A stretch of 23,779 nucleotides of DNA, from IMG/VR virus record IMGVR_UViG_3300031702_000048, positions 1 to 23,779 of that record. The stretch is one strand, 5' to 3'. Both the position numbers and the translations under genes were made by a program. The notes below the pieces were generated by a model that worked only from the letters and a program-made list of their open reading frames with translations, did no database searches and was not told where the DNA came from. This document shows positions 63-19,050 of this stretch, piece by piece (positions within the stretch are counted from its first letter, which is position 1; each line of letters begins with the position of its first letter). The DNA is from a virus.

Positions 63-70
63 TATAAATA
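63..70 (+). promoter_or_regulatory. T4-type late promoter box TATAAATA
   Basis: An exact TATAAATA, the known -10 element of T4 late promoters recognised by the phage sigma factor gp55, lies 33 bases upstream of the first baseplate gene. Transcription would start about six to seven bases downstream, leaving a leader of roughly 27 bases. A TAAGG ribosome binding site (93-97) is six bases before the ATG at 104. It probably drives the run 104-8208. Confidence 0.8.
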
Positions 71-103: not shown

Positions 104-1030
104 ATGAAATATCCATTAAGCGACACAGAACAATATCAAGGCAAGATTATGTTCAGGCCAATTGAGGAAAACTATGTCGATATTCCGCGAACTGCAAACC
201 AAACAATTCGCGAAGCAGGGGGCGTTTTAAGTCAATTCACCACGGATGGCATAAGCACAAGCAGTGTTGATGATGTGTTTGGTTCAGGAAATAAATTCAC
301 TAGCAAAAAACAAATCAATGGCCCTTCGCGTGCTGCTGCGGGTGGAATTGTTACATTGTATTTACCACAAGCAATCAATGTATCAGATCAAGTGAGTTAT
401 GAAAGAATTGATTTGGGAACAATTGGCGCAATTGGCGCAGAAGCATTTAAATCTGGCAATAGTTTATTAGGAAGCGTTTTCAAAGCTGGGTCTGCATCTG
501 CTAATAGTATGTTAGATTTTATCACTAATCCATCAGGAATGCGTAAAGATTTGGCAAGTTTGGCTGCGGTGCGTCTTGCCCCAGGCGGAGTTGGAACAGG
601 CGCAGCAAAGTCTGTATTGGGTGTGACAGTGAATCCAAACACAAAGTCACTCTTTCGTGGAGTTGAACTAAGAACTTTTGGGTTTACATTTAAAATGATT
701 GCAACATCTGCGGCTGAAGCACAATCTATTGAACAAATTGTCAAAACATTTAGAACCGAATTGTATCCAGAAGCAATCAACGCGAACCCTGAGTTTTTTA
801 ATATTCCTGTCGGCTATCACATGCCCAACAAATATAGAATCACTATGATGTATAATGGTGTGGAATTACCTATTAAGTTTCTTGATGCAAATCTCATTTC
901 TGTTCAGACAACATATAACCCGTCTAGTATGGGTTGGCACGCTGACGGAAAACCATCCGAAGTTGATTTGACATTAGCATTCGGCGAACCAAGAACACTA
1001 TCGAAAAAAGATATTGGGGATGGATACTAA
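104..1030 (+). CDS. gp48: Baseplate tail-tube cap/initiator protein (gp48/gp54 type)
   Basis: The 308-residue product looks like the gp48/gp54 family, which sits on the hub at the baseplate centre and starts polymerisation of the inner tail tube. The clearest part is the C-terminal half: the RGVELRTFGFTFKMIA stretch, a helix-rich segment to about residue 235, a YRITMMYNGVELPIKF strand region, and a tail with VDLTLAFGEPRTLSKKDI. Closing strands of this sort (xxLTLxFxExRTLxRxDI) are typical of gp48-like proteins in marine T4-like phages. T4 gp48 is 364 and gp54 320 residues, so length fits either; gp48 is preferred because of the C-terminal pattern. The ATG has a good TAAGG site and follows a late promoter. 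The stop overlaps the next start by one base. Confidence 0.68.
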   Translation: MKYPLSDTEQYQGKIMFRPIEENYVDIPRTANQTIREAGGVLSQFTTDGISTSSVDDVFGSGNKFTSKKQINGPSRAAAGGIVTLYLPQAINVSDQVSYERIDLGTIGAIGAEAFKSGNSLLGSVFKAGSASANSMLDFITNPSGMRKDLASLAAVRLAPGGVGTGAAKSVLGVTVNPNTKSLFRGVELRTFGFTFKMIATSAAEAQSIEQIVKTFRTELYPEAINANPEFFNIPVGYHMPNKYRITMMYNGVELPIKFLDANLISVQTTYNPSSMGWHADGKPSEVDLTLAFGEPRTLSKKDIGDGY

Positions 1031-1740
1031 TGTATTTCAACAACTTCAAAAAAACTGGATACAAATTCGGGAACGAAACGCATCTCACTGGTTTTCAAAA
1101 TATTCTCACATATGTTGACATTATTGATGACATTAAAGACAATTTGGATTTCTATGAATTGTATCATGTTCAGAACGAAAGACCAGATCAACTATCATAT
1201 AAATTGTATAATACCACAGATTTTTATTGGACATTCTTTTTGATGAATGATCATATTAGACGACAGGGTTGGCCATTGAATGATGCAACACTTGATGCAA
1301 GAGCAAAGAAAGTCTTTGGCAATACAACAGTGACCACTAAGGAAAACTTCAGTGCGTCGTTTGCATTGGGCGATACGATTAGTGGGGGTTCGAGTGCAAC
1401 GACGGGTACGGTCACACGAAGAAATTCCGATCTAGGCCAAATCATCATCGGCGGCACCAAAACATTCATAGCAGGAGAATTGATTGAAGATCAAAACGGA
1501 AATCGCGTATTGATTGATTCCTTTTCAGAAGAATATAATTCTGCAAAGTCATATAGCGATGGCGATGGACTATATTCGGATATTGATCCTACAGTTGGCC
1601 CTGGTGCGCTTCTTACCGAAACAACATACTTAGATTTCCATAAGGTGGAAAATGATAAGTTAAAAGTGATTCGAGTAGTGAAACCGACTGCAATCAACTC
1701 TGTTGTTTCTGCATTCAAAGAAGCGGTGCGTGGCACATAA
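1030..1740 (+). CDS. gp53: Baseplate wedge subunit gp53, with an inserted beta module
   Basis: The N-terminal 95 residues carry the gp53 signature, including NERPDQLSYKLYNTTDFYWT (residues 49-68), FFLMND and GWPLND; gp53 is a wedge protein that clamps neighbouring wedges together around the hub. The C-terminus, KLKVIRVVKPTAINSVVSAF, also fits the family, whose end contacts neighbouring subunits. At 236 residues it is about 40 longer than T4 gp53. The extra length is an insertion at about residues 105-190 that begins with a small beta module (DTISGGSSATTGTV ... FIAGELI) also seen in gp8 and the 1709-residue protein of this window. Start and stop codons overlap those of the neighbours by one base each, suggesting translational coupling. 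Confidence 0.88.
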   Translation: MYFNNFKKTGYKFGNETHLTGFQNILTYVDIIDDIKDNLDFYELYHVQNERPDQLSYKLYNTTDFYWTFFLMNDHIRRQGWPLNDATLDARAKKVFGNTTVTTKENFSASFALGDTISGGSSATTGTVTRRNSDLGQIIIGGTKTFIAGELIEDQNGNRVLIDSFSEEYNSAKSYSDGDGLYSDIDPTVGPGALLTETTYLDFHKVENDKLKVIRVVKPTAINSVVSAFKEAVRGT

Positions 1741-3023
1741 TGTCTGAAGATAGATTAATCATAGAAAAAGCGATTATCAGTGATCCAGAAGGTTTTCTAG
1801 TTTTTGAAATTGAAAACATCATTACTGATATTGAGATTTTTGAACACATAGACAAACCATACTTGACAGGTCTTGTTAGTTTCCTTGACACTGCTGGCAT
1901 ATATGATAAAATTAAGTTTAAAGGAGTCGAATCCTTTCATCTTACTTTGAGATACCCCGAAGACGACGGACCAACGGTCAACAGAAGTTTCATCATTAAT
2001 GGCATTGTTGATACCACAAAGAATAATGACAAAAGCGAACTCATCACATTTAAGATGATCGAAAAAAGTGGATTTATATCAACTTTTTTAAATGTCAACA
2101 AGGCATATGAAGGAACATGTAGGGAAATTATTGAAAAGATTTTTCTTGATCATTTCGATGAATACGCATTAAGCGATCCAGACGAAACCGAAGTAGCGGG
2201 TACTATGAAAGTAGTTGTCCCTAATATGACTCCTATGCAAGCTTGTAATTGGATTAAAGACAGAACAACAGACTTCTATGGAACACCTTTCTATTTATTT
2301 TCGACATTGGGTAATCACAATACGGTGCATTTTCTTTCTCTAAAACGAATGCTTGAAAATGATGGTGGTCAAAATGAATATGTCTATAGTCAAACGGCGA
2401 CTGGCACTCAAAATAGAGAAGCTAAGAACTACATTATCCAAAGTTATCAAACCAAAGCCGCTCCGAATATCAGTAGCATTATTTCTAAAGGTTTAGTTGG
2501 CGCTGAATATAGTTTTTGGGACACCATAAATGCAAATGCCAACCCAATGAAATATGATGTCATCAAGCAATTCGAAGTGGGTCTTTCGAATATGGACGCA
2601 GATTCTTTTGTTTTCAATACAAATTATTCTCATAACGATAAAAAACTAAACACGATCAAGTCTAAAAAAATATATAGTATTGCGACTTCGCTTGCGTATC
2701 CAGATCACCAGACGATTCGCGAACCTAGGTCGTGGAGCAAGAATGTGCAAGCAAGAGCATTAAGACACATTGTCACAAGCAATGCTATAGATATATCCGT
2801 ATCTGGCAGGAACTTTCTTATCGCAAATTCCAATAGAACATTGGGGAATATCATCAAGTTGAAATTTCTAAACAATGATGTAGCTGAAGATGGAAATAGC
2901 CTATATGAATCGACGGACCAAATGAAATCAGGGAAACATTTGATTTATGCCGCAAGACATATTATTAGAAAAGAACGATATGATGTTACATTCAGTTGTG
3001 TTAAGTTAGCGAACATCAAATGA
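1740..3023 (+). CDS. gp27: Baseplate hub subunit, gp27-like
   Basis: At 427 residues it is close to T4 gp27 (391), the trimeric hub ring that links tail tube and spike. Primary-sequence similarity to T4 gp27 is not obvious to me. The call rests on the hub-type layout: an N-terminal beta domain (FEIENIITDIEIFEHIDKPY and following), a middle segment NMTPMQACNWIKDRTTDFYG (about residues 161-180) followed by FYLFSTLG and VHFLSLKRML, the pattern of gp27/gpD/VgrG hubs in which a helix precedes strands describing an N-terminally bound partner, and then a second beta domain to the end. It directly precedes, and overlaps by four bases (ATGA), the OB-fold gp5 gene, the usual partner of gp27. No signal peptide or membrane segment is seen. 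Confidence 0.72.
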   Translation: MSEDRLIIEKAIISDPEGFLVFEIENIITDIEIFEHIDKPYLTGLVSFLDTAGIYDKIKFKGVESFHLTLRYPEDDGPTVNRSFIINGIVDTTKNNDKSELITFKMIEKSGFISTFLNVNKAYEGTCREIIEKIFLDHFDEYALSDPDETEVAGTMKVVVPNMTPMQACNWIKDRTTDFYGTPFYLFSTLGNHNTVHFLSLKRMLENDGGQNEYVYSQTATGTQNREAKNYIIQSYQTKAAPNISSIISKGLVGAEYSFWDTINANANPMKYDVIKQFEVGLSNMDADSFVFNTNYSHNDKKLNTIKSKKIYSIATSLAYPDHQTIREPRSWSKNVQARALRHIVTSNAIDISVSGRNFLIANSNRTLGNIIKLKFLNNDVAEDGNSLYESTDQMKSGKHLIYAARHIIRKERYDVTFSCVKLANIK

Positions 3024-4033
3024 CTTTAAAAACAATAGACGCGCAATATTATGGCGATGAAACAAGATGGTTTGTTGGCGTAGTAGAAAGCGTTAATGAT
3101 CCCCTTAAACAAGGCAGGGTTAGGGTAAGAATCTTTGGTGTTCATTCAGCAAACATATCCGATATTCCTGCTAGTGCATTGCCTTGGGCGCAAGTTGTCG
3201 CACCAATAACACAAGCAGGAACATCTGGAGTTAATGGAACTCCAGTTGGCTTGAAAGCATCTGCGCAAGTGTTTGGCATGTTTCTTGATGGAAAGCATTC
3301 TCAAATTCCTCTTGTAATTGGTTCTATTCCCAAAGTTGATGGCCCCGCGCCAAATCCCCATCACACGGGGTGGTCTGGTGTCGCACGACCTGGTCAACCA
3401 CCTATTTTAACAGGCGACGCTTTGCATAATAGTGGCGGCAGATCAGTAGCCGCTATGACATTTAAAGGCGGGTCCAATCCAGAAAAAGTATATAATGTCT
3501 TAGAAGAAGGATTTCGAATTGATATGGGGTTGAAAAACTCAAGAGAACTCGCGGCTGGCTTTGTTGGAAACTTTATGTCGGAATCTGGTTCCAACTTAAA
3601 CTATCTTGTTCACAACACGAGTGGCAAAGCCCCGGGGGCGTTGGGGATAGCACAATGGCGTGGGAATAGATATCACAATCTTATGAAGTACGCCGCTGGG
3701 GAAGGGGCGGCATTAGAAGATGCAACCACTCTTGGTGGAACAAAGACGGGAACAAAAATCCCATCGTTGAAAATTCAAGCGGCGTTTGTGTTGCACGAAA
3801 TTAGCGGGGGTGATGGATACGAAACTAGCAACTTCAACAGAGAAATTAGAACGCAACCTACTGCAAAACTTGCTGGCAGTGCCGTTGAAGCTTGGTACGA
3901 AAGACACCAAACAGCTTTGCGAAACAAACCCTTTGAAACTAGATATAGAAATTTTGATATTAAAAAGAGGGTCGATGACGCGCAACGCATATATTCATCA
4001 TTTGCCCATAGAAATAGACAGGAAGCACAATAA
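3020..4033 (+). CDS. gp5: Baseplate hub gp5: OB-fold plus tail lysozyme, without the beta-helix
   Basis: Residues about 14-103 form a gp5-type OB-fold: RWFVGVVESVNDPLKQGRVR followed by VRIFGVHS, LPWAQVVAPIT, and FLDGKHSQIPLVIGSIP. In T4 this domain binds the gp27 ring. After a Gly/Pro linker, residues about 155-330 resemble the phage tail lysozyme family (Phage_lysozyme2): AAGFVGNFMSESG with E188 as likely catalytic acid, then GALGIAQWRGNR (207-218). This is not the GH24 lysozyme found in T4 gp5. The protein would cut host peptidoglycan as the tail tip crosses the envelope. It stops at 337 residues whereas T4 gp5 has 575 and continues into a beta-helix; here the helix is encoded separately at 6121. 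The gene overlaps both neighbours (ATGA upstream, TAATG downstream). Confidence 0.85.
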   Translation: MTLKTIDAQYYGDETRWFVGVVESVNDPLKQGRVRVRIFGVHSANISDIPASALPWAQVVAPITQAGTSGVNGTPVGLKASAQVFGMFLDGKHSQIPLVIGSIPKVDGPAPNPHHTGWSGVARPGQPPILTGDALHNSGGRSVAAMTFKGGSNPEKVYNVLEEGFRIDMGLKNSRELAAGFVGNFMSESGSNLNYLVHNTSGKAPGALGIAQWRGNRYHNLMKYAAGEGAALEDATTLGGTKTGTKIPSLKIQAAFVLHEISGGDGYETSNFNREIRTQPTAKLAGSAVEAWYERHQTALRNKPFETRYRNFDIKKRVDDAQRIYSSFAHRNRQEAQ

Positions 4034-6096
4034 TGGCATTTAGTTTAGATGTGTTAGAAAGCACACTTGATCAGGTAAAGTCAACACTTGGTTCCATCAG
4101 CGCACAGAAGGCTTTAACAGAAGCAAAAGTTGAATTCGAGGCTCTTAATACGCCTCTTGTTGGCGCACTTGCGGGTCTACAGAATAATGGAATCAAAGCA
4201 TTGGATTCTGTTTTAGGTGATTTTGGTGCTGCGGATAAGTCTGGAAAGAATAATGTTGCGCTAAAGAATAGTACAACAAAATTACAAAATATTCAATTTC
4301 AGTTAGATGACCTACAATCACCTATTGCAATGATGACTGAACAGTTACCGAATATTTCTGTCAAGATTAAACCTATTTTGGCTGATGCGCAAAAAACCTT
4401 GGCATCTGCTATCACTGGTTCGGGTGTTCAAGAAGCTTTCAATTCAGTTGCTATCGCTTTGCCAACTGCTGCGGGCCTTGGCCCTGCCATCAAAGGCATG
4501 GGTGCTGATATTCTACCAACAGAATTGGGCGATATTATATCAAAGGCCGTTGGATCAGTAGACATAAACTTACAGGCTGGTTTGCCAAAAGATTTAACGA
4601 GTTTGCTTTCGTTTCCAAAAATAGATTTGAACCTTGGTGCGATCACTTCAAAGCTAGATTTGTTTGGCGATGGCCTAACAAAAGCAATGGGTGACATCTT
4701 ACCAAAGATAACAGACTTGCCCATACTTGACAACCTTCATAAATTAAATAATTCTGTAAATATTATTGGCGCTGGATTCGACTTTCCTACGAACATATCA
4801 GGCATTGCTAAGAAAGCCGTTTCTACTGCGGTTCTTAAAAAGTTGTCAGACGGAAAGCTTGGTGATGTTTTAGATTTGGTTACAAAAGCTGGGGCTATCG
4901 GTGATACAACTAGCATCATAGCCAAGATCAATGTATTTGGCATCGACCTTGGTTCGGTATCAGGCATGTTGCAATCGCCTTTGGGTGGGTTGGACATAAC
5001 ACAAACCAATACAGTCAACACCATTTCGGGCATATCCAAAGGTTATAGTGTGCTAAATTCTGTTGAAGAAATTCAAATGGAAATCAACGCAAGTAACAGA
5101 AGCTTTGAAACAGTAGTTTGGCATTGGTCTGCTTCATATGCAAACCAAATAGTGACAGCGCGAGACATTGAAAGAACATCTGGAACGGTTCCATATCACT
5201 ACATCATTCGCAAAAATGGATCAGTACAGCGTGGGACGCCATTGAATGAAGTTGCATCACACGGAAATGCAGATATCGATCCCAAGTCAATTTCTGTTTT
5301 GGTCATTGGTGGATACAAAGGGTTGTTGGGTGAAAATTCGCAACTGTCTGGTGAATCGGTTAATGGTGCGCAAAAGATTAGAATTAACGAAATCATGGGC
5401 GCTATTTATAATGTACGACCCGGCATTCAAATGTATGGTCATGGCGAATTGGACGGAAACTATTCAACCCTTGAACCGGGCGTGAATATCGGTTCCTTGT
5501 CAAAATCGAAATTTAATAAAGTCAATGAAAAAATACCACAAATTACTAGAAGCCATACGGGCAACCAAGAAGGCGTGTATCAACACCAAGGCGTAACCCG
5601 CGCCTATTCGGGTTCAATTAGAAATCGTGCGCCCACGCAAAGCTTGATGACCACACTATCGTCGTGTAATATAATAAGCGATTTAACATTTGTGATATTT
5701 TCTGCTGGCCAAATGTCGTTTGGCGAATGGGATAGTTATCCAAAGTCAAGAACAAGACAAGCAGGAAAGACCTATTTCTTGGATGGCGTAAAGGTACGCC
5801 AAGGATCAAGGCGTCATGATAATGGCTGGGCTGTTGATTGCAAAGTGTATCGCGGCAATAAGAAATTGGATTTTGGTGCAAGTGTCGTATCCGATGATGT
5901 GATGGAATGTGTCGATAATCTATTTGCATTAGGTGCAACTGCTATTGGCGCTGGCCCAAACTACATGGGCGGGAATATACATATAGACATGGCTTTTGGC
6001 AATAACGATGTTGCTGATATTTCAAGGTGGGGTGCTGGCGGTAAATCTAAGAATACCCCGCGCTGGCTTGCGAATATTCACGGACCATATACATAA
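4033..6096 (+). CDS. Baseplate-encoded double peptidoglycan hydrolase: Amidase_2 plus M15-type peptidase
   Basis: A 687-residue protein with three parts. Residues 1-340 are Ala/Leu/Ile-rich and probably helical, with no recognised domain; this may be the part that anchors it in the baseplate. Residues about 357-490 look like an N-acetylmuramoyl-L-alanine amidase of the Amidase_2/T7-lysozyme family: WHWSAS (H364, first zinc ligand), PYHYIIRKNGSVQRG (387-401), ASHGN (H410), and MYGHGELDGN (H470). The usual Cys/Asp ligand before the PG motif is E481 here. Residues about 540-687 carry an M15 D,D-peptidase signature: H595 and D602 in RHDNGWAVD, and H650 in NIHIDM, the expected zinc triad. It would cleave the stem peptide and its link to the glycan. 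It sits between the gp5 lysozyme and spike genes, so it is most likely part of the virion hub rather than an endolysin. Confidence 0.78.
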   Translation: MAFSLDVLESTLDQVKSTLGSISAQKALTEAKVEFEALNTPLVGALAGLQNNGIKALDSVLGDFGAADKSGKNNVALKNSTTKLQNIQFQLDDLQSPIAMMTEQLPNISVKIKPILADAQKTLASAITGSGVQEAFNSVAIALPTAAGLGPAIKGMGADILPTELGDIISKAVGSVDINLQAGLPKDLTSLLSFPKIDLNLGAITSKLDLFGDGLTKAMGDILPKITDLPILDNLHKLNNSVNIIGAGFDFPTNISGIAKKAVSTAVLKKLSDGKLGDVLDLVTKAGAIGDTTSIIAKINVFGIDLGSVSGMLQSPLGGLDITQTNTVNTISGISKGYSVLNSVEEIQMEINASNRSFETVVWHWSASYANQIVTARDIERTSGTVPYHYIIRKNGSVQRGTPLNEVASHGNADIDPKSISVLVIGGYKGLLGENSQLSGESVNGAQKIRINEIMGAIYNVRPGIQMYGHGELDGNYSTLEPGVNIGSLSKSKFNKVNEKIPQITRSHTGNQEGVYQHQGVTRAYSGSIRNRAPTQSLMTTLSSCNIISDLTFVIFSAGQMSFGEWDSYPKSRTRQAGKTYFLDGVKVRQGSRRHDNGWAVDCKVYRGNKKLDFGASVVSDDVMECVDNLFALGATAIGAGPNYMGGNIHIDMAFGNNDVADISRWGAGGKSKNTPRWLANIHGPYT

Positions 6097-6120
6097 CTAC
6101 CAGAATGAAAGAATTGATTG

Positions 6121-8208
6121 ATGACAACGACAACAGATAATCCCAAAAGTAGAGCAAATCTAGGTAAAGATTTTTCAACAACAGACTTGACATTCGGTGA
6201 TATTGATGGTCAATATCCAACAAGTAACTATGAAAACGCTTCATCTGTAAACGCATCCGCAAGAGCGGGTTCGTCGTCTAATGAATTGGACATTGCTGGT
6301 TCTGTTTCTGGTATCGACTTATCGCAGTATTTAGGTGGTATTGAATCTCAATATCCTTTGAACCAAGTTATCCAAACAGAATCAGGCCACATCATTGAAT
6401 ATAATGATTCGCCAACATCACCAAGAATCTTGATAATGCACGCTGAAGGAACTGGTATTGACATGCGACCCGATGGAAGCATTATTGTAAATGCTGCTGG
6501 TGGTGGACTTGTTCAAGTTTCGTCTGGTGGTCATAAGCTGATCGTCAAGGGCGACGGTCAAATGAGCTATAGTGGCAATTTGACATTGGATGTTGCTGGC
6601 GATTTCAATGTCAATGTTGGGGGTTCTTATAATGTCCAAGCCAAAGACGAAACAAAATCTATCATGGGTGCGTCAAGAGACATTTACTTCGGAAACAAAT
6701 ATTCTACGGTGAAAGGCAACAGGCGTGACACATACACTGGCGACTATAATGGAATAACCTTTGGCGATTCTGGTTATTTTGTTAAAGGTAATAATCAGGT
6801 TGCAGTCCAAGGGTCATTTTCGCAATCATCCAAGGGCGTCATGTCGTCGTCGTCTGAAGAACAGATGACTTCATCTAGTCCAGATATCAACATCGGTGCC
6901 GAAAACATTTCTGTTTTTGGGGCAAATGGTAATATTGGTGGCGAAAATGTGACTATGCATAGTTTCAATAGTTTTATTGGTCATAGCTTATGGGCTGGCG
7001 AAACAGTAAACACTAAAACTGTAACAGCCACGGCAACAGTAAATGCAATATCGCATCATGGCGATTTGTATGGCACAGCCACATCTGCGTTGGAATCCAA
7101 TGTCGCAGCGGGTTCTGCTTCGCAAGTACAAGGTTCTGATGCTTCATTCGATACGACAGGATCAAGCGATAAAGCCACAACAGAAACAATTGACGCATAT
7201 TCTAAATCAAATTATGGCACAAAGAAAGTTTCAATTGATGAAGGCGATGTGTACAAATCTAATTTAGACAAGCTTGTGTCAACTGAAAATGTAACAGATA
7301 GACCTTTGGTTTTGTCGCAGGTTCGTGCAAAGAAACGGGATGCGGGCCACAGCGCGTCAAAAGCATTTAATAATTATGCGGTCACATCTAAGCAGATGAA
7401 CCCAAATTATATCGACACCATTCCACCTGCCGTGTCAGAAATTCGTGACCCCAAGCAATTGACACAAACAGGACAGGCGACATTGCCAGATGGCGATCCA
7501 ACTGCAAGAACTATACCAGCCACAAATAGAACTGGCACCATTTCGGTCGATCCACAATACAATCCTAACCTATTGCAAATCATCACGACAGCAACAAAGA
7601 TCACACCTAGCGTTTCGCTTTCAGAATTTGCTTATGGTAAAGGTGATCCACATGGGTTGGACAAGACACTTAGGCTTGAGCAAAAGATTCCAATTTTAAG
7701 GAACCTGTATCCCCACGCACAAGCATTGACGCGTATTCGTGACAACAAAGATGAATATCGTGGATACAATCTAGAAGTCACAGAAGGCTTGTACATTCCA
7801 CATGCCGATGAAACTATCGAAACTGATGGCATCCTTGACCTAAGAAAGCAAGGACGCGCAGTTGTATATGAACTTGTTGGTATCAATGGGGTTATCGATA
7901 AGGCAAAGACCTTTGAATTGGCGTCTTGGATGGCAAAGAATTTGCAATACGATAAGATCATTCTTGATTATGATATGTATGACCCGTTTGGGGATTTGAA
8001 TTGCCAAATCGTTCTTATCATGCCGCAAGTGCCTGCTGATTACAAAGTTTCGTATAAATTGGAAACTGAAACATTATACAATGGCAAAAAGCAAGATAAT
8101 GGGTTCATGGAAATTGTCACAGAAAAGATTGAACCATTGGACCCTGCTGATTCTACCGCACCTGCACCTGAATCGATTCCTGATGATAGCGAATATGAGC
8201 CACAATAA
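6121..8208 (+). CDS. gp5-type beta-helical tail spike with a C-terminal M15-like domain
   Basis: A 696-residue protein (ATG at 6121; a TTG at 6118 directly before it is less likely). Residues about 80-125 match the start of the gp5/VgrG needle: TESGHIIEYND, then RILIMHAEGTGIDMRPDGS. Residues about 125-340 are short repeating strands rich in G, V, N and S (GGHKLIVKGDG, LTLDVAGDFNVNVGGSYNV, GNNQVAVQGSF), as in the trimeric beta-helix of T4 gp5 that pierces the outer membrane. Residues 340-490 are Ser/Thr-rich linker. Residues about 500-665 look globular, with VTEGLYIPHA and LRKQGRAVVYEL (574-585) recalling the M15/hedgehog fold but lacking its zinc ligands. An acidic Pro-rich tail ends the protein. 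It terminates the hub unit, 43 bases before gp25. Confidence 0.75.
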   Translation: MTTTTDNPKSRANLGKDFSTTDLTFGDIDGQYPTSNYENASSVNASARAGSSSNELDIAGSVSGIDLSQYLGGIESQYPLNQVIQTESGHIIEYNDSPTSPRILIMHAEGTGIDMRPDGSIIVNAAGGGLVQVSSGGHKLIVKGDGQMSYSGNLTLDVAGDFNVNVGGSYNVQAKDETKSIMGASRDIYFGNKYSTVKGNRRDTYTGDYNGITFGDSGYFVKGNNQVAVQGSFSQSSKGVMSSSSEEQMTSSSPDINIGAENISVFGANGNIGGENVTMHSFNSFIGHSLWAGETVNTKTVTATATVNAISHHGDLYGTATSALESNVAAGSASQVQGSDASFDTTGSSDKATTETIDAYSKSNYGTKKVSIDEGDVYKSNLDKLVSTENVTDRPLVLSQVRAKKRDAGHSASKAFNNYAVTSKQMNPNYIDTIPPAVSEIRDPKQLTQTGQATLPDGDPTARTIPATNRTGTISVDPQYNPNLLQIITTATKITPSVSLSEFAYGKGDPHGLDKTLRLEQKIPILRNLYPHAQALTRIRDNKDEYRGYNLEVTEGLYIPHADETIETDGILDLRKQGRAVVYELVGINGVIDKAKTFELASWMAKNLQYDKIILDYDMYDPFGDLNCQIVLIMPQVPADYKVSYKLETETLYNGKKQDNGFMEIVTEKIEPLDPADSTAPAPESIPDDSEYEPQ

Positions 8209-8221
8209 TTGAAAAAAATTG

Positions 8222-8229
8222 TATAAATA
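8222..8229 (+). promoter_or_regulatory. T4-type late promoter box TATAAATA before gp25
   Basis: An exact TATAAATA lies 22 bases upstream of the gp25 ATG in one of the few intergenic gaps. The predicted start near 8235-8237 would leave a leader of only about 15 bases. The AGGA ribosome binding site is at 8241-8244, seven bases before the ATG at 8251. It likely drives gp25, gp6 and gp7. Confidence 0.8.
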
Positions 8230-13920: not shown

Positions 13921-16900
13921 ATGGTCGATCAAGTAATCAAGAGTACATTCGAAAACACATATCAAGACGATTACAGTGATAGCGCAGGCTTTCATCGTGT
14001 TCTCTTTAATAATGGTCGCGCTGTTCAAGCCCGTGAGTTGACGCAACTCCAAACAATTATTCAGTCAGAAATCACTCGTTTTGGGAACAACATTTTCAAA
14101 GAAGGTGCTGCGGTTAATCCCGGCGGCATTAGTGTTAATCCAGTTGAATTTGTAAAACTTAACACAACATCAAATGTACTTCCAACCGACACATCAACAA
14201 TCGTCGATACCGAATTTACTGGTGGAACATCTGGCATTAAGGCAAGTGTTGTTATTGTTAAGGCGGCTAGTGGTTCTGACCCTGCAACAATTTATATCAG
14301 GTATGAAGACGGAACAGCGTCAGGTGCAGTCATTAAGTTTGCCGCTGGTGAGGATATTACAAACGGTTCCGTGACCCTTACCATTCAGACAACGAACACG
14401 GCAGCAAATCCCGCAATTGGTCGTGGATTGTCTGCAAACATCTCGGGTGGCGATTTCTATACCGCTGGCCGATTTGTTTTCGCCCCAAAACAAACCGAAG
14501 TGATTTCAAAATACACAACACTTCTTACAGACGATCTTGGGTTCAAGATTATCGAAGATATTGTCACGGCCAACGATGATTCAACACTTTATGACAACTC
14601 TGGTGCTTTGCCAAATACATCTGCTCCTGGTGCTGACCGATATAGAATTCGTCTCGAACTAGATATCAGAAGCAACATTTTGTCAACCGAAAACTTTGTG
14701 TATATCGCTAAAATCAGAAATGGCGTTATTATTTCTGATGTTAAGGCTGAATCAGAAGACAATTACAATGTACTAAGAGACGCTTTAGCAATAAGAACAA
14801 AAGAAGAATCTGGCGATTATATCGTCAAACCATACACACTTGCTTTTGATAACGATTCTGACGCAACAAAACTTGATGTTCATGTTTCTCCTGGGACGGT
14901 CTATGTTGATGGATATAGAGCAAATAAAGATTTCAACACAACTATCGTTGTAACAAAACCAAGAACAACACAAACGAAAAATAACGAAGTAAGTGCCTTC
15001 GATTTGGGCAACTATGTAATTATTAGTGCAAGCAAAGGGCTTCCAAATGTGGATACCTTTGAATTAATGAACTTGCGTTCTGCTGTTACACATGGCGGTT
15101 CTACTATCGGTACAGCAAGAGTTCGCGCCATTGAAGAAAATGGCGATGGTAATTATAAAGTATTTTTGTTCCAATTGACAATGAATTCTGGACAAAACTT
15201 CAGAAGCGTTAGAAGTATCGGCACATCAACAACAAACTTTTCCAATTTGGCTCTTGAAAATTCACAAGCAGTTTTGAAAGATGCTAGTAACAACTCACTA
15301 TTGCTAAGTCTTCCAACCTCTAGACCATCAGCCCTTTCAGATATTTCTCTTGCCACGCAACGAAGATTTACAACATCAACGAACGGTTCAGGCGAAGCGA
15401 CTCTTACGCTATCGGCATCGGGCGAAACTTTCTCGAATACCAATGATTGGATTGTGGCACTAGACGATAGCGATGTTATTTCTGGAGCGGGTATCACGGG
15501 CGCGGGTACAACATCTAGTACACTTTCAGGATTACCTGCATCTCAATCAAACCTCGAAGTTATCACATATGTCAATAAGGCATCTGCCACGGTAAGATCA
15601 AAAGACCTTAAAACGGGTGCGGATACCATTTCATCTTTTGATTCGGACGGCGGCGGTCTTGTCTTTGCAAATCTAACCAAAGCAGATATCTTTTCATTCG
15701 ATGGCATCACCCTTGCTGATTCGTCTGGTAGATCACTTGTAAGCAAATTCGATATTGATAATGGCCAAAGGGATAATTTTTATGATCTTGGTCGTATCGT
15801 ATTAAAACCGGGTCAATCTGTTCCCACAGGTGGCGTTGTCGTCCAATATCAATATTTCGGGCATGGCGTTTCTGGCGATTTCTTTGGCGTGAATTCATAC
15901 ACGGGCGAAGTTGATTATGAAGACATTCCATCACACACACAAGCCGATGGATCGGTCGTTTCTCTAAGAGATGTTATCGACTTTAGATCAGTTGTAAATT
16001 CATCCCAAACATTTGGATCAGGTGCAATTGTCCACGAATTGCCACAGACAAACGACTTGGTTCAAGCCGATGTAACATATTATCTTGGCACACGAAACAA
16101 AGTGGTCATAACGACAAATAATGAAATTAAGTTTATTTCTGGACTACCTGCGATTGATCCGAAATATCCAGAAACGCCTTCAAGTTCTCTTGAATTGTAT
16201 AGAGTTACATTGAACCCATATGGTTTGTCAGCGTCCGATTTGAGCGTTGAAAAGATTGATCATAGACACTACACTATGGGCGATGTTGGTAGACTTGAAG
16301 ATCGTATTGATAAACTAGAAGAATTGACTTCACTCAGCTTGCTTGAACTTGACACAAGTGCATTGAGTGTGCTGGATTCCGCTGGCTTGGATAGAACAAA
16401 ATCTGGTTTCTTTGTTGACAATTTCGCTGATCACACATTCACTGATGTTGCATCATCTGAACACCGTGCTTCAATTGATCCTGTTAATAAGGCGCTTAGA
16501 CCAACATCAAATGAAGACGCAATTAGTCTCCAATATGACTCTGCTACATCAACGAACACCATTCTTCGAGGCGATAATGTATATTTGAATTATACACACA
16601 GATCACATATTGATCAAGCGTCCGTTACTGGAACAGAAAATGTCAATCCTTTCATTCAAATGGATTGGTTGGGCAATATCACAATGTCTCCAACAAGCGA
16701 CAGTTGGGTAGAACAAGAATATCAAGCCGATAGAGTAATCAATGGCGGCACTAGACTTAATACTAATGCGGGTAATTTGTGGAATTCAGCGTCGTGGAAT
16801 TGGGCAGGGACACCTCTTGATCAACTACAAGTTGGATCACAAACAAATTCTATTGTTCTTGCTTCAAGTAGTAATGCTAGACTTACTACAACAAATGAAC

Positions 16901-19050
16901 TAATGCAAAACGGGGGCGGCGCAAATATTAGTACGACAACTCGCACATCTACCACCACTACAACATCAGCTTCAAATAGAGTTGTTGCTGCGGAAACGGT
17001 GCGTAGAGTCATTGGCGATAGGGTTGTTGATATTCTTGTCATACCATTTATGCGATCCATTAAAGTTTATTTCAAAGGCGAAGGATTTAGACCAAATACA
17101 AGATTGTTCCCATTCTTTGATGATGTTGCTGTTGATTCTTGGGTCAAGGCCGAAACATTCGCAAATGTTGCCACAAATCAAGTGGATTATGGTAACACCT
17201 TGAATGGTGCGGTAGGACATCCAGACGGATCATCAAATCTTGTTGCGTCGGCCTCTGGTACAATTGAAGGATCATTTTTCATTCCTTCAACAGCAGGACT
17301 TAAATTTAGAACAGGCACGCGTCCATTCACTTTATCTGATATTTCTTCTGGTATTAGAGCAGACGGAACATCATTTGGGAATACGACATTTACTTCAACG
17401 GGGGCTATAGAAGTCAGACAACGCGATGTTATATCTACTCGTGTTTTGACTGTACAAAGTTTCACTAACACTTCTAGATCATCAAACCGCCGAGTTGTTT
17501 CGATAAGAATTAATGAAGAAGCCGATCCATTGGCACAATCATTCGTTATTAGTGAACCAACGGGCGTCTTCGCCACCAAGTTTGATTTCTACTTTAAAAC
17601 AAAAGCAGACAAAGAAGCAAATCCCGTTTGGATTCAACTCAGAACTATGGAAAATGGTATTCCATCGAGCAATATCATACCAGGATCAACCAAATTTGTT
17701 TATCCTGCACAAATTACAACTTCAACTGATGCTAGTGTGGCAACATCATTTGAATTTGATGAACCAATCTATCTCGCGCCATATAAAGAATATGCGGTTG
17801 TATTGTTGTCAAACACGACTGAATATCTCACATATATTTCAAGAGTTGGTGACTTCGTTTTGGGGACTACTGATAAGAAAGTGACCAAACAACCATTCTT
17901 GGGATCGTTATTCAAATCACAAAACGCATCAACTTGGACACCATCGCAGTGGGAAGACCTTACATTCAAAATGCATGTTGCTGAATTTACCGCAACAACA
18001 GGTGTTGCTAAATTGAATAATGTTGCGGTTCCATTACATCTATTACCAACTGATCCATTCACAGTTGATTCTGCGGATGCGACAATCACTGTAAATCAAA
18101 AATCACATGGATTCACAGTCGGCGATACAGTAACGGTTGCGGGTGCCACAACATTCGGCGGAATAAATGCTACAAGCATCAACGGCGCTAGAACAATTAC
18201 TGCTATTGATATTACGGGCTATAGGTTCGAAGCGGATTCTGCATCAACATCCGCTGATATTGGTGGCGGCAACGCAGTCCTTTCCAATAAAAACATCTTA
18301 ATGGATGTTGCGATTCCAAATATCCAAACACTATTGCTTGATGATACTGGAATAACATCTACTGGTCAATTCACAACGGCGGAAAGTCTTGCTGGTACAG
18401 AAACAGCATATCAAAAAGAATCTGCAATCAATATTCCTGTTGGACGCGAATTTGTTTTCTCGGCACCAAAAATGATTGCCAGTGCCGCTAATGAAACTGC
18501 TAATATGTCAGGCGTGAAAAGTCTAACTATTGATATGGCAATGTCAACTACCAATGATTACATTTCGCCAGTAATTGACATGCAACGCGCAACAGTCATT
18601 GCAATTTCGAATAGTATTGACAAGCAGGCGGCGTCGGCTACAAGTGGATTTAATGTTCCACTTAACTATGTTTCCGAAACCAAGTCAACAGGTGGCACCC
18701 ACGCTTCTAAGCACATCACAAGCCCAATTACCCTAGCAGACAACGCAGTTGGCCTAAAGGCGCTTATATCGGCTAATAGGCCATCGGTAGCAAGCTTCGA
18801 TTTGTACTACAGAGTTTCAAATGGCACTACGCTTTTGACTGATACGGACTGGACATTATCTACCATAGATAACGCTATGCCATCTGATGAAAATCCAGAA
18901 GTCTTTAGATCATATGAATATCTTATTGGTGGGTTAGGTGGCGATATTGCAGCGTTCAATCAATTCCAATTGAAAATCGTATTTAAATCAACGAATAGTA
19001 GTAAAGTTCCTATCATTCGCGACCTAAGAGCAATCGCGCTAGGTGTGTGA
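13921..19050 (+). CDS. Giant virion structural protein, DUF4815-type, probably baseplate periphery or fibre attachment
   Basis: A 1709-residue protein whose N-terminus, FHRVLFNNGRAVQARELTQL (24-43) and ITRFGNNIFKEGA, is the hallmark of large DUF4815-type tail proteins that follow gp8 in marine T4-like phages. Residues about 93-148 hold the TSG beta module shared with gp53 and gp8. A Thr/Ser-rich stretch (1004-1018) separates the first kilobase-scale half from IPFMRSIKVYFKGEGFRPNT (about 1038-1057), a recurring phage tail motif. ADPLAQSF (1201-1208) opens a beta-sandwich region with FEFDEPIYLAPYKEYAVVLL. Residues about 1383-1458 contain a SHGFTVGDTVTVAGA repeat-type domain. The end, PIIRDLRAIALGV, is also family-typical. 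Exact role is unknown; position argues for linking wedges to fibres. No enzyme motif was seen. Confidence 0.72.
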   Translation: MVDQVIKSTFENTYQDDYSDSAGFHRVLFNNGRAVQARELTQLQTIIQSEITRFGNNIFKEGAAVNPGGISVNPVEFVKLNTTSNVLPTDTSTIVDTEFTGGTSGIKASVVIVKAASGSDPATIYIRYEDGTASGAVIKFAAGEDITNGSVTLTIQTTNTAANPAIGRGLSANISGGDFYTAGRFVFAPKQTEVISKYTTLLTDDLGFKIIEDIVTANDDSTLYDNSGALPNTSAPGADRYRIRLELDIRSNILSTENFVYIAKIRNGVIISDVKAESEDNYNVLRDALAIRTKEESGDYIVKPYTLAFDNDSDATKLDVHVSPGTVYVDGYRANKDFNTTIVVTKPRTTQTKNNEVSAFDLGNYVIISASKGLPNVDTFELMNLRSAVTHGGSTIGTARVRAIEENGDGNYKVFLFQLTMNSGQNFRSVRSIGTSTTNFSNLALENSQAVLKDASNNSLLLSLPTSRPSALSDISLATQRRFTTSTNGSGEATLTLSASGETFSNTNDWIVALDDSDVISGAGITGAGTTSSTLSGLPASQSNLEVITYVNKASATVRSKDLKTGADTISSFDSDGGGLVFANLTKADIFSFDGITLADSSGRSLVSKFDIDNGQRDNFYDLGRIVLKPGQSVPTGGVVVQYQYFGHGVSGDFFGVNSYTGEVDYEDIPSHTQADGSVVSLRDVIDFRSVVNSSQTFGSGAIVHELPQTNDLVQADVTYYLGTRNKVVITTNNEIKFISGLPAIDPKYPETPSSSLELYRVTLNPYGLSASDLSVEKIDHRHYTMGDVGRLEDRIDKLEELTSLSLLELDTSALSVLDSAGLDRTKSGFFVDNFADHTFTDVASSEHRASIDPVNKALRPTSNEDAISLQYDSATSTNTILRGDNVYLNYTHRSHIDQASVTGTENVNPFIQMDWLGNITMSPTSDSWVEQEYQADRVINGGTRLNTNAGNLWNSASWNWAGTPLDQLQVGSQTNSIVLASSSNARLTTTNELMQNGGGANISTTTRTSTTTTTSASNRVVAAETVRRVIGDRVVDILVIPFMRSIKVYFKGEGFRPNTRLFPFFDDVAVDSWVKAETFANVATNQVDYGNTLNGAVGHPDGSSNLVASASGTIEGSFFIPSTAGLKFRTGTRPFTLSDISSGIRADGTSFGNTTFTSTGAIEVRQRDVISTRVLTVQSFTNTSRSSNRRVVSIRINEEADPLAQSFVISEPTGVFATKFDFYFKTKADKEANPVWIQLRTMENGIPSSNIIPGSTKFVYPAQITTSTDASVATSFEFDEPIYLAPYKEYAVVLLSNTTEYLTYISRVGDFVLGTTDKKVTKQPFLGSLFKSQNASTWTPSQWEDLTFKMHVAEFTATTGVAKLNNVAVPLHLLPTDPFTVDSADATITVNQKSHGFTVGDTVTVAGATTFGGINATSINGARTITAIDITGYRFEADSASTSADIGGGNAVLSNKNILMDVAIPNIQTLLLDDTGITSTGQFTTAESLAGTETAYQKESAINIPVGREFVFSAPKMIASAANETANMSGVKSLTIDMAMSTTNDYISPVIDMQRATVIAISNSIDKQAASATSGFNVPLNYVSETKSTGGTHASKHITSPITLADNAVGLKALISANRPSVASFDLYYRVSNGTTLLTDTDWTLSTIDNAMPSDENPEVFRSYEYLIGGLGGDIAAFNQFQLKIVFKSTNSSKVPIIRDLRAIALGV

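Follow-up and report, generated by a model that had tools for sequence, protein, structure and literature searches.

Separate genes for the OB-lysozyme and beta-helix halves of a probable gp5-like piercing device in a T4-type environmental phage

The central piercing device of phage T4, gp5, is the textbook case of a protein made as a single chain and cut during assembly. The cut at 351/352 lies between the lysozyme and the helix, and the linkers and the helix restrain the lysozyme to about 10% activity until the helix departs (PMC3004832). Here we analyse the corresponding locus of an IMG/VR virus contig of metagenomic source (IMGVR_UViG_3300031702_000048), whose 23,779 bases, referred to below as the window, carry a T4-type baseplate operon in the order gp48, gp53, gp27, OB-lysozyme, amidase-like, spike, gp25, gp6 and more wedge genes. 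An earlier note on this DNA had claimed that the OB-fold and lysozyme end at 4033, that the beta-helix starts at 6121 as a gene of its own and that a 687-residue amidase/peptidase gene lies exactly at the break. The three open reading frames (ORFs) at 3020–4033, 4033–6096 and 6121–8208 are indeed all open and follow each other back to back in close packing, and a primary chain combining OB domain, lysozyme and helix is found neither in the window nor in the complete loci of its clade.

Residues 14–113 of the first product correspond to residues 7–110 of T4 gp5 (phmmer against the PDB, E 1.7e-16), which places an N-terminal gp5 OB domain next to the gp27 gene directly upstream. Pfam recognizes both Gp5_OB (1.9e-9) and Phage_lysozyme2 (PF18013; 2.9e-15, 57.1 bits versus a curated cut-off of 28.2). 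The earlier assignment of a lysozyme to this gene stands, but PF18013 is a family other than the GH24 of T4, and a GH24 domain between linker and helix is not present in the window. The lysozyme glutamate is retained in 65 of 71 relatives; related IMG/VR loci were gathered by scans with the window proteins and the spike C-terminal domain and typed with hidden Markov models (HMMs) built in this analysis. The third product aligns by its residues 61–250 with T4 gp5 370–559 (phmmer, E 2.3e-10), and the two products cover different parts of one and the same family, PHROG 430, at positions 15–182 and 331–590, respectively. T4 gp5 chains are the top PDB matches of the AlphaFold model of the spike (Foldseek, prob 1.00, E 1.7e-6), and pairs of glycines at a distance of 8 residues number 14, compared with 4.6 in shuffled sequences, none of the 2000 shuffles scoring as high. 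Sequence and model together predict a C-terminal octad triple beta-helix opening with TESGH. The end of the first gene is free of a helix and the third gene carries the gp5 helix signature, so that the division described in the earlier note is confirmed at both of its ends.

The middle gene is hydrolase-like, in line with the earlier note. Its Amidase_2 match in Pfam (25.1 bits) is narrowly below the 26-bit cut-off, PHROG indicates an amidase (7.7e-11), and Foldseek, although working from a weak model, relates the domain to T7 lysozyme with prob 1.00. The putative zinc ligands of the window, H364, H470 and E481, compare with His, His and Cys/Asp in the family; among the complete amidase genes of the relatives, which were collected by synteny, the ligands are intact in 30/62 and lost in 32/62. 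An M15-type HxxGxAxD..H zinc motif (H595, D602, H650) is present near the end of the protein; this region is without a Pfam match, and the intact motif is missing in most relatives. Homologues of the middle gene were found neither by tblastn in the named phages nor by a peptide-pattern scan of IMG/VR. Since the fold and the location persist where catalysis is lost, a structural role as hub subunit is likely for the middle protein. A read-through fusing the middle gene with the spike, which is in the same frame, was ruled out by extra in-frame stop codons at 6096–6121.

The spike ends with a domain of ca. 190 residues, which the earlier note had not described. Aligned with the M15A ends of Caulobacter phage Cr30 (KF301602), Methylophilales phage Melnitz (MZ577097), Rhizobium phage RHph_I1_18 (MN988519) and a PAAR-M15 protein, it gave an hhalign E-value of 7.6e-5 over 144 columns, with controls at 0.07–0.4; a first alignment with two M15 sequences had been weak (prob 18) and that with four was stronger. 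The top viral match of the spike model (Foldseek BFVD) is also an M15A protein. The M15 zinc ligands are not conserved, the Asp being Tyr in nearly all sequences and the last His being Gln in the window. Judged from sequence and model, the domain is probably a decayed M15 peptidase retained as needle tip, the likeness being one of fold only. A tblastn search with the isolated domain in the named phages and a profile search of the PDB were both empty. Many relatives encode the domain as yet another separate gene. The same peptidase type occurs at the needle tip of Pseudomonas phage Astolliot (locus L178, 3622–4626), in which a PAAR-like tip protein is apparently fused to an M15A peptidase.

Table 1. 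Features of the gp5 locus and its surroundings (positions in the window).
Feature	Positions	Strand	Basis and remarks
T4-type late promoter core TATAAATA	63..70	+	precedes hub operon (gp48 onward)
gp27-like hub protein	1740..3023	+	PHROG 350, 1.8e-38; also directly 5' of OB gene in relatives
OB + tail lysozyme gene, N-terminal half of gp5	3020..4033	+	Pfam, PHROG, phmmer; 337 residues
gp5 OB domain, residues 12–113	3053..3358	+	phmmer match to T4 gp5
PF18013 tail lysozyme domain	3452..4009	+	Pfam 2.9e-15; likely catalytic Glu188 at 3581–3583
Amidase/M15-like gene between both gp5 parts, 687 residues	4033..6096	+	ORF, Pfam, PHROG, Foldseek
N-terminal ~345 residues of middle protein	4033..5067	+	matches no known family; low-confidence helical model
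Amidase_2-like domain	5068..5532	+	PHROG, Foldseek; putative zinc ligands H364, H470, E481
M15-type peptidase-like region	5545..6093	+	motif alone; H595, D602, H650
Separate beta-helix spike gene, gp5C-like	6121..8208	+	PHROG, phmmer, Foldseek, glycine spacing
Post-OB linker motif FGDIDGQYP...VNASARAG, spike start	6193..6273	+	own score weak, E 5.1; aligned to relatives scoring down to 3e-8
TESGH motif (6376–6390) and triple beta-helix region	6343..7020	+	phmmer, octad glycines, Foldseek
Spike C-terminal domain, probable decayed M15A peptidase	7558..8124	+	hhalign, Foldseek BFVD; zinc Asp -> Tyr
Late-promoter core TATAAATA	8222..8229	+	precedes gp25; no + strand copy between 63 and 8222

T4 gp5 (PDB 1k28, 1pdl, 1wth) shares with the window the OB domain, a hydrolase, TESGH and the octad beta-helix, and its mature particle also contains two chains, one with OB and lysozyme and one with the helix. 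It differs by its single gene, its GH24 lysozyme starting near 174 and its linker between OB and lysozyme; moreover, T4 encodes the PAAR protein gp5.4 downstream and lacks both the amidase gene and the M15-like tip. In VgrG and the P2 gpV spike, the OB domain is fused straight to the helix in one chain, unlike in the window. Among named phages, Melnitz (genes 154/155; OM43 host) has OB and helix in adjacent separate genes, a linker opening the spike gene and an M15A-type spike end, but a VanY/M15-type domain instead of the lysozyme on the OB gene, nothing between the genes and an intact spike M15 motif. In the record, the first gene is called “OB domain protein” and the second “baseplate hub subunit/tail lysozyme”, and the Melnitz paper does not discuss the split (PMC9004378). 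RHph_I1_18 (EVB91_042/041/040) encodes OB plus PF18013 lysozyme, an intervening gene and then the helix; here the intervening gene is a 116-residue hypothetical, the spike M15 motif is intact and a linker is not recognized. Ochrobactrum phage vB_OspM_OC (OC; phiOC_p064, MT028491) has the same succession of OB, PF18013 lysozyme, linker and helix, but unites them in one chain of 808 residues that also includes an M15_3 domain (OB-M15-lysozyme-linker-helix), and represents the unsplit counterpart. Cr30 gp5 likewise combines OB, PF18013 lysozyme, helix and M15 end in one 701-residue chain. Nitratidesulfovibrio phage SRB7757 (PV062637, an unverified record; L092, 4533–6483) shares the gene-level separation of OB plus hydrolase from the helix, but it carries an SLT domain, and its linker is on the OB gene, which gives a T4-like break position; the gene for OB-linker-SLT and that for the helix share 14 nucleotides, with nothing between them. 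The enzyme of the OB gene is thus replaced in some loci, by SLT in SRB7757, by a VanY-like domain in Melnitz and, in L008 (5169–6047), by a Hydrolase_2-like domain, a weak match to the cell wall hydrolases that stands in place of the lysozyme. Swapping of gp5 modules is already known from the CHAP domain of CBA120 (PMC3184105), and the diversity of pelagimyophage gp5 clusters has been ascribed to the host wall (PMC7029224). Campylobacter phages, considered on account of the two tail-lysozyme genes named in the IBB_35 paper, were dropped as sharers of the split, the related F375 having OB and helix in one ORF.

The position of the break can be defined by a linker, GFxDPxGxYP..TNxLARG, which directly follows the OB barrel in fused T4-like chains (T4 position 113–133). 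An HMM of this linker, built from ten fused T4-like chains, was run against 4297 other ORFs and matched 36 at E<0.01 (best 3e-8). Apart from the OB gene of SRB7757, all of these are spike-gene starts, either in the split clade or in Melnitz; reversed and shuffled control sets yielded none at this threshold. Altogether 77 spike-only genes were matched, and among the 70 OB-only genes SRB7757 alone. The reciprocal HMM finds T4 113–124 (2e-4) and OC 498–526 (3e-7), the latter site lying after the lysozyme and before the helix. In line with this, residues 24–76 of the Melnitz spike correspond to positions 71–121, the C-terminal part, of the Pfam model Gp5_OB (PF06714; E 1.8e-4). Because the linker starts the spike gene in the split clade, and because of the order OB-M15-lysozyme-linker-helix in OC, the gene break of the split clade is between the lysozyme and the linker of an OC-type chain, away from the lysozyme-helix cut of T4. 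Only SRB7757 breaks at the T4-like cut position. T4 and the split clade thus have the partition of parts in common but differ in the junction.

The arrangement is widespread. The spike C-terminal domain is encoded on 393 IMG/VR contigs, and OB-hydrolase, amidase-like protein and helix occur in separate ORFs, with the amidase-like one in the middle, at 61 loci (a total that includes the window and at least one contig entered twice). OB and helix never share an ORF in the complete loci that carry the spike C-terminal domain. After dereplication, 44 OB-only genes remain at 90% identity and 27 at 70% (RHph_I1_18, SRB7757 and Melnitz included), and neighbouring genes touch or share 1–4 nucleotides in most loci. 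In a tree built from 50 gp6 rows and without a secure root, the split group forms one side of one branch with a Shimodaira-Hasegawa-like approximate likelihood ratio test (SH-aLRT) value of 76; its neighbour is a marine group (L037–L083) with a chain of ca. 190–240 residues comprising OB and a short beta-helix without any lysozyme. This chain is usually followed by a gene of ca. 400–460 residues, for which domain searches were empty. Rhizobium phages RHph_I1_9 and P10VF and Agrobacterium phage OLIVR5 (L087/L088/L177) encode a chain of ca. 850 residues with a lysozyme-like stretch and the helix, an OB domain being undetected in the same ORF; it may be located elsewhere or unrecognized, possibly reflecting another kind of split.

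The sequence TATAAATA corresponds to the T4 late-promoter consensus (PMC3184105) and occurs six times in the window altogether, compared with 1.7 expected. Its plus-strand cores at 63, 8222, 11516 and 19120 are located directly 5' of gp48, gp25, a gp9/10-like gene and the 19255 gene, respectively. As the plus strand between the first two is free of further copies, the region from gp48 through the spike (104–8208) is probably transcribed as a single late unit. A search for Rfam elements in the window was negative, and no further gp5-like gene is present in it besides the OB-lysozyme and spike genes. Outside this unit, a 1709-residue DUF4815 protein (13921–19050; phrog_358, 1270 bits) is a plausible candidate for a VrlC-type protein, by which pelagi- and cyanomyophages are said to replace T4 gp7 (PMC7029224).

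Sequence or model shows the identity of the domains, their distribution over separate genes, the conserved order gp27/OB-lysozyme/amidase-like/spike and the presence of the linker on the spike gene. On this basis we consider it probable that this T4-like myovirus builds its central piercing device from a gp5 encoded as two chains, OB plus PF18013 lysozyme and linker plus triple beta-helix spike, and we propose the following scenario for its assembly and origin. Three copies each of the OB-lysozyme and spike proteins would assemble beneath the gp27 trimer, in the manner of gp5* and gp5C of T4. The two trimers would be joined non-covalently from the outset, rendering a maturation protease dispensable, and the linker, which likely joins the halves, would serve as a docking strap at the spike N-terminus. 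Upon contraction, the spike would penetrate the outer membrane and detach, whereafter the lysozyme and any active amidase or M15 domain would breach the wall. During evolution, a lysozyme may have been inserted between OB and linker, as in the single chain of OC; subsequently, the gene would have broken between lysozyme and linker, and the amidase-like gene would have taken up the break site. A more far-reaching version, which we regard as tentative and rather doubtful, is a cleavage-free device in which the break abolishes the maturation step and the covalent tether of T4, the middle protein replaces their control as cap, lid or plug and the decayed M15 tip replaces PAAR.

Several points weigh against the proposed two-chain device and its origin. 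The linker copy of the window is diverged (E 5.1), its identification resting on the alignment to relatives, and its docking role is one that we infer. In Cr30, PF18013 separates OB from helix, and a linker is not recognizable. The tree branch has an SH-aLRT of 76 and the root is not secure, so that the tree gives neither the direction nor the number of splits. Finally, the AlphaFold model of the middle protein, with a predicted local distance difference test (pLDDT) score of 51, is too poor for placing its N-terminal half.

Alternatively, an ancestral OB-linker-lysozyme-helix chain might have broken at the old T4 cleavage site. The earlier note had favoured this explanation, a maturation cut fixed at gene level, and it accounts for the partition of domains, which is the same as in gp5*/gp5C, for the length of the first product (337 residues, near the 351 of gp5*) and for SRB7757, which shows a break of exactly that kind. 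However, the break site does not agree, since both Melnitz and the split clade carry the linker with the spike, which contradicts the explanation for the clade; in addition, the lysozyme family is unlike that of T4 and the single chain of OC has its lysozyme ahead of the linker. As a general explanation it thus appears unlikely. Little more than a slight chance is left for an intact gp5 interrupted by insertion of the amidase-like gene as a mobile or moron gene, the split being a by-product. The gene does sit exactly at the break in 61 loci, but Melnitz and SRB7757 are split with nothing between, RHph_I1_18 has the unrelated 116-residue gene there, and in the tightly packed genes traces of an insertion were not seen. 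That the two proteins are not halves of one device, the spike being located elsewhere or the OB protein being merely an adaptor, is very improbable in view of their adjacent genes in one probable late operon, their homology to parts of a single T4 protein and the lack of another gp5-like gene in the window. An assembly or sequencing artefact, suggested by nothing more than the metagenomic source, can practically be dismissed, as dozens of independent contigs from different samples share the arrangement, which likewise speaks against chance, and isolates have a split gp5 as well.

Gene-level splits of gp5 are already present in databases (Melnitz, RHph_I1_18, SRB7757) but are unremarked in the open-access literature that we searched, which also yielded no description of a split across a whole clade, of a displaced linker or of decayed modules. 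The partition known from T4 was here reached on a different route. A large group of environmental phages encodes both functional halves of gp5 separately, with the break at another point than the T4 cut, an indication that the piercing device can do without cutting. With OC as the unsplit counterpart and SRB7757 as a break at the T4 position, the purpose of the maturation cut becomes testable by comparison. Around a constant OB-helix core, wall-hydrolase modules have been swapped, relocated and decayed. Annotation that presupposes a single chain has left many gp5 parts of marine and freshwater phages with wrong labels or unnoticed.

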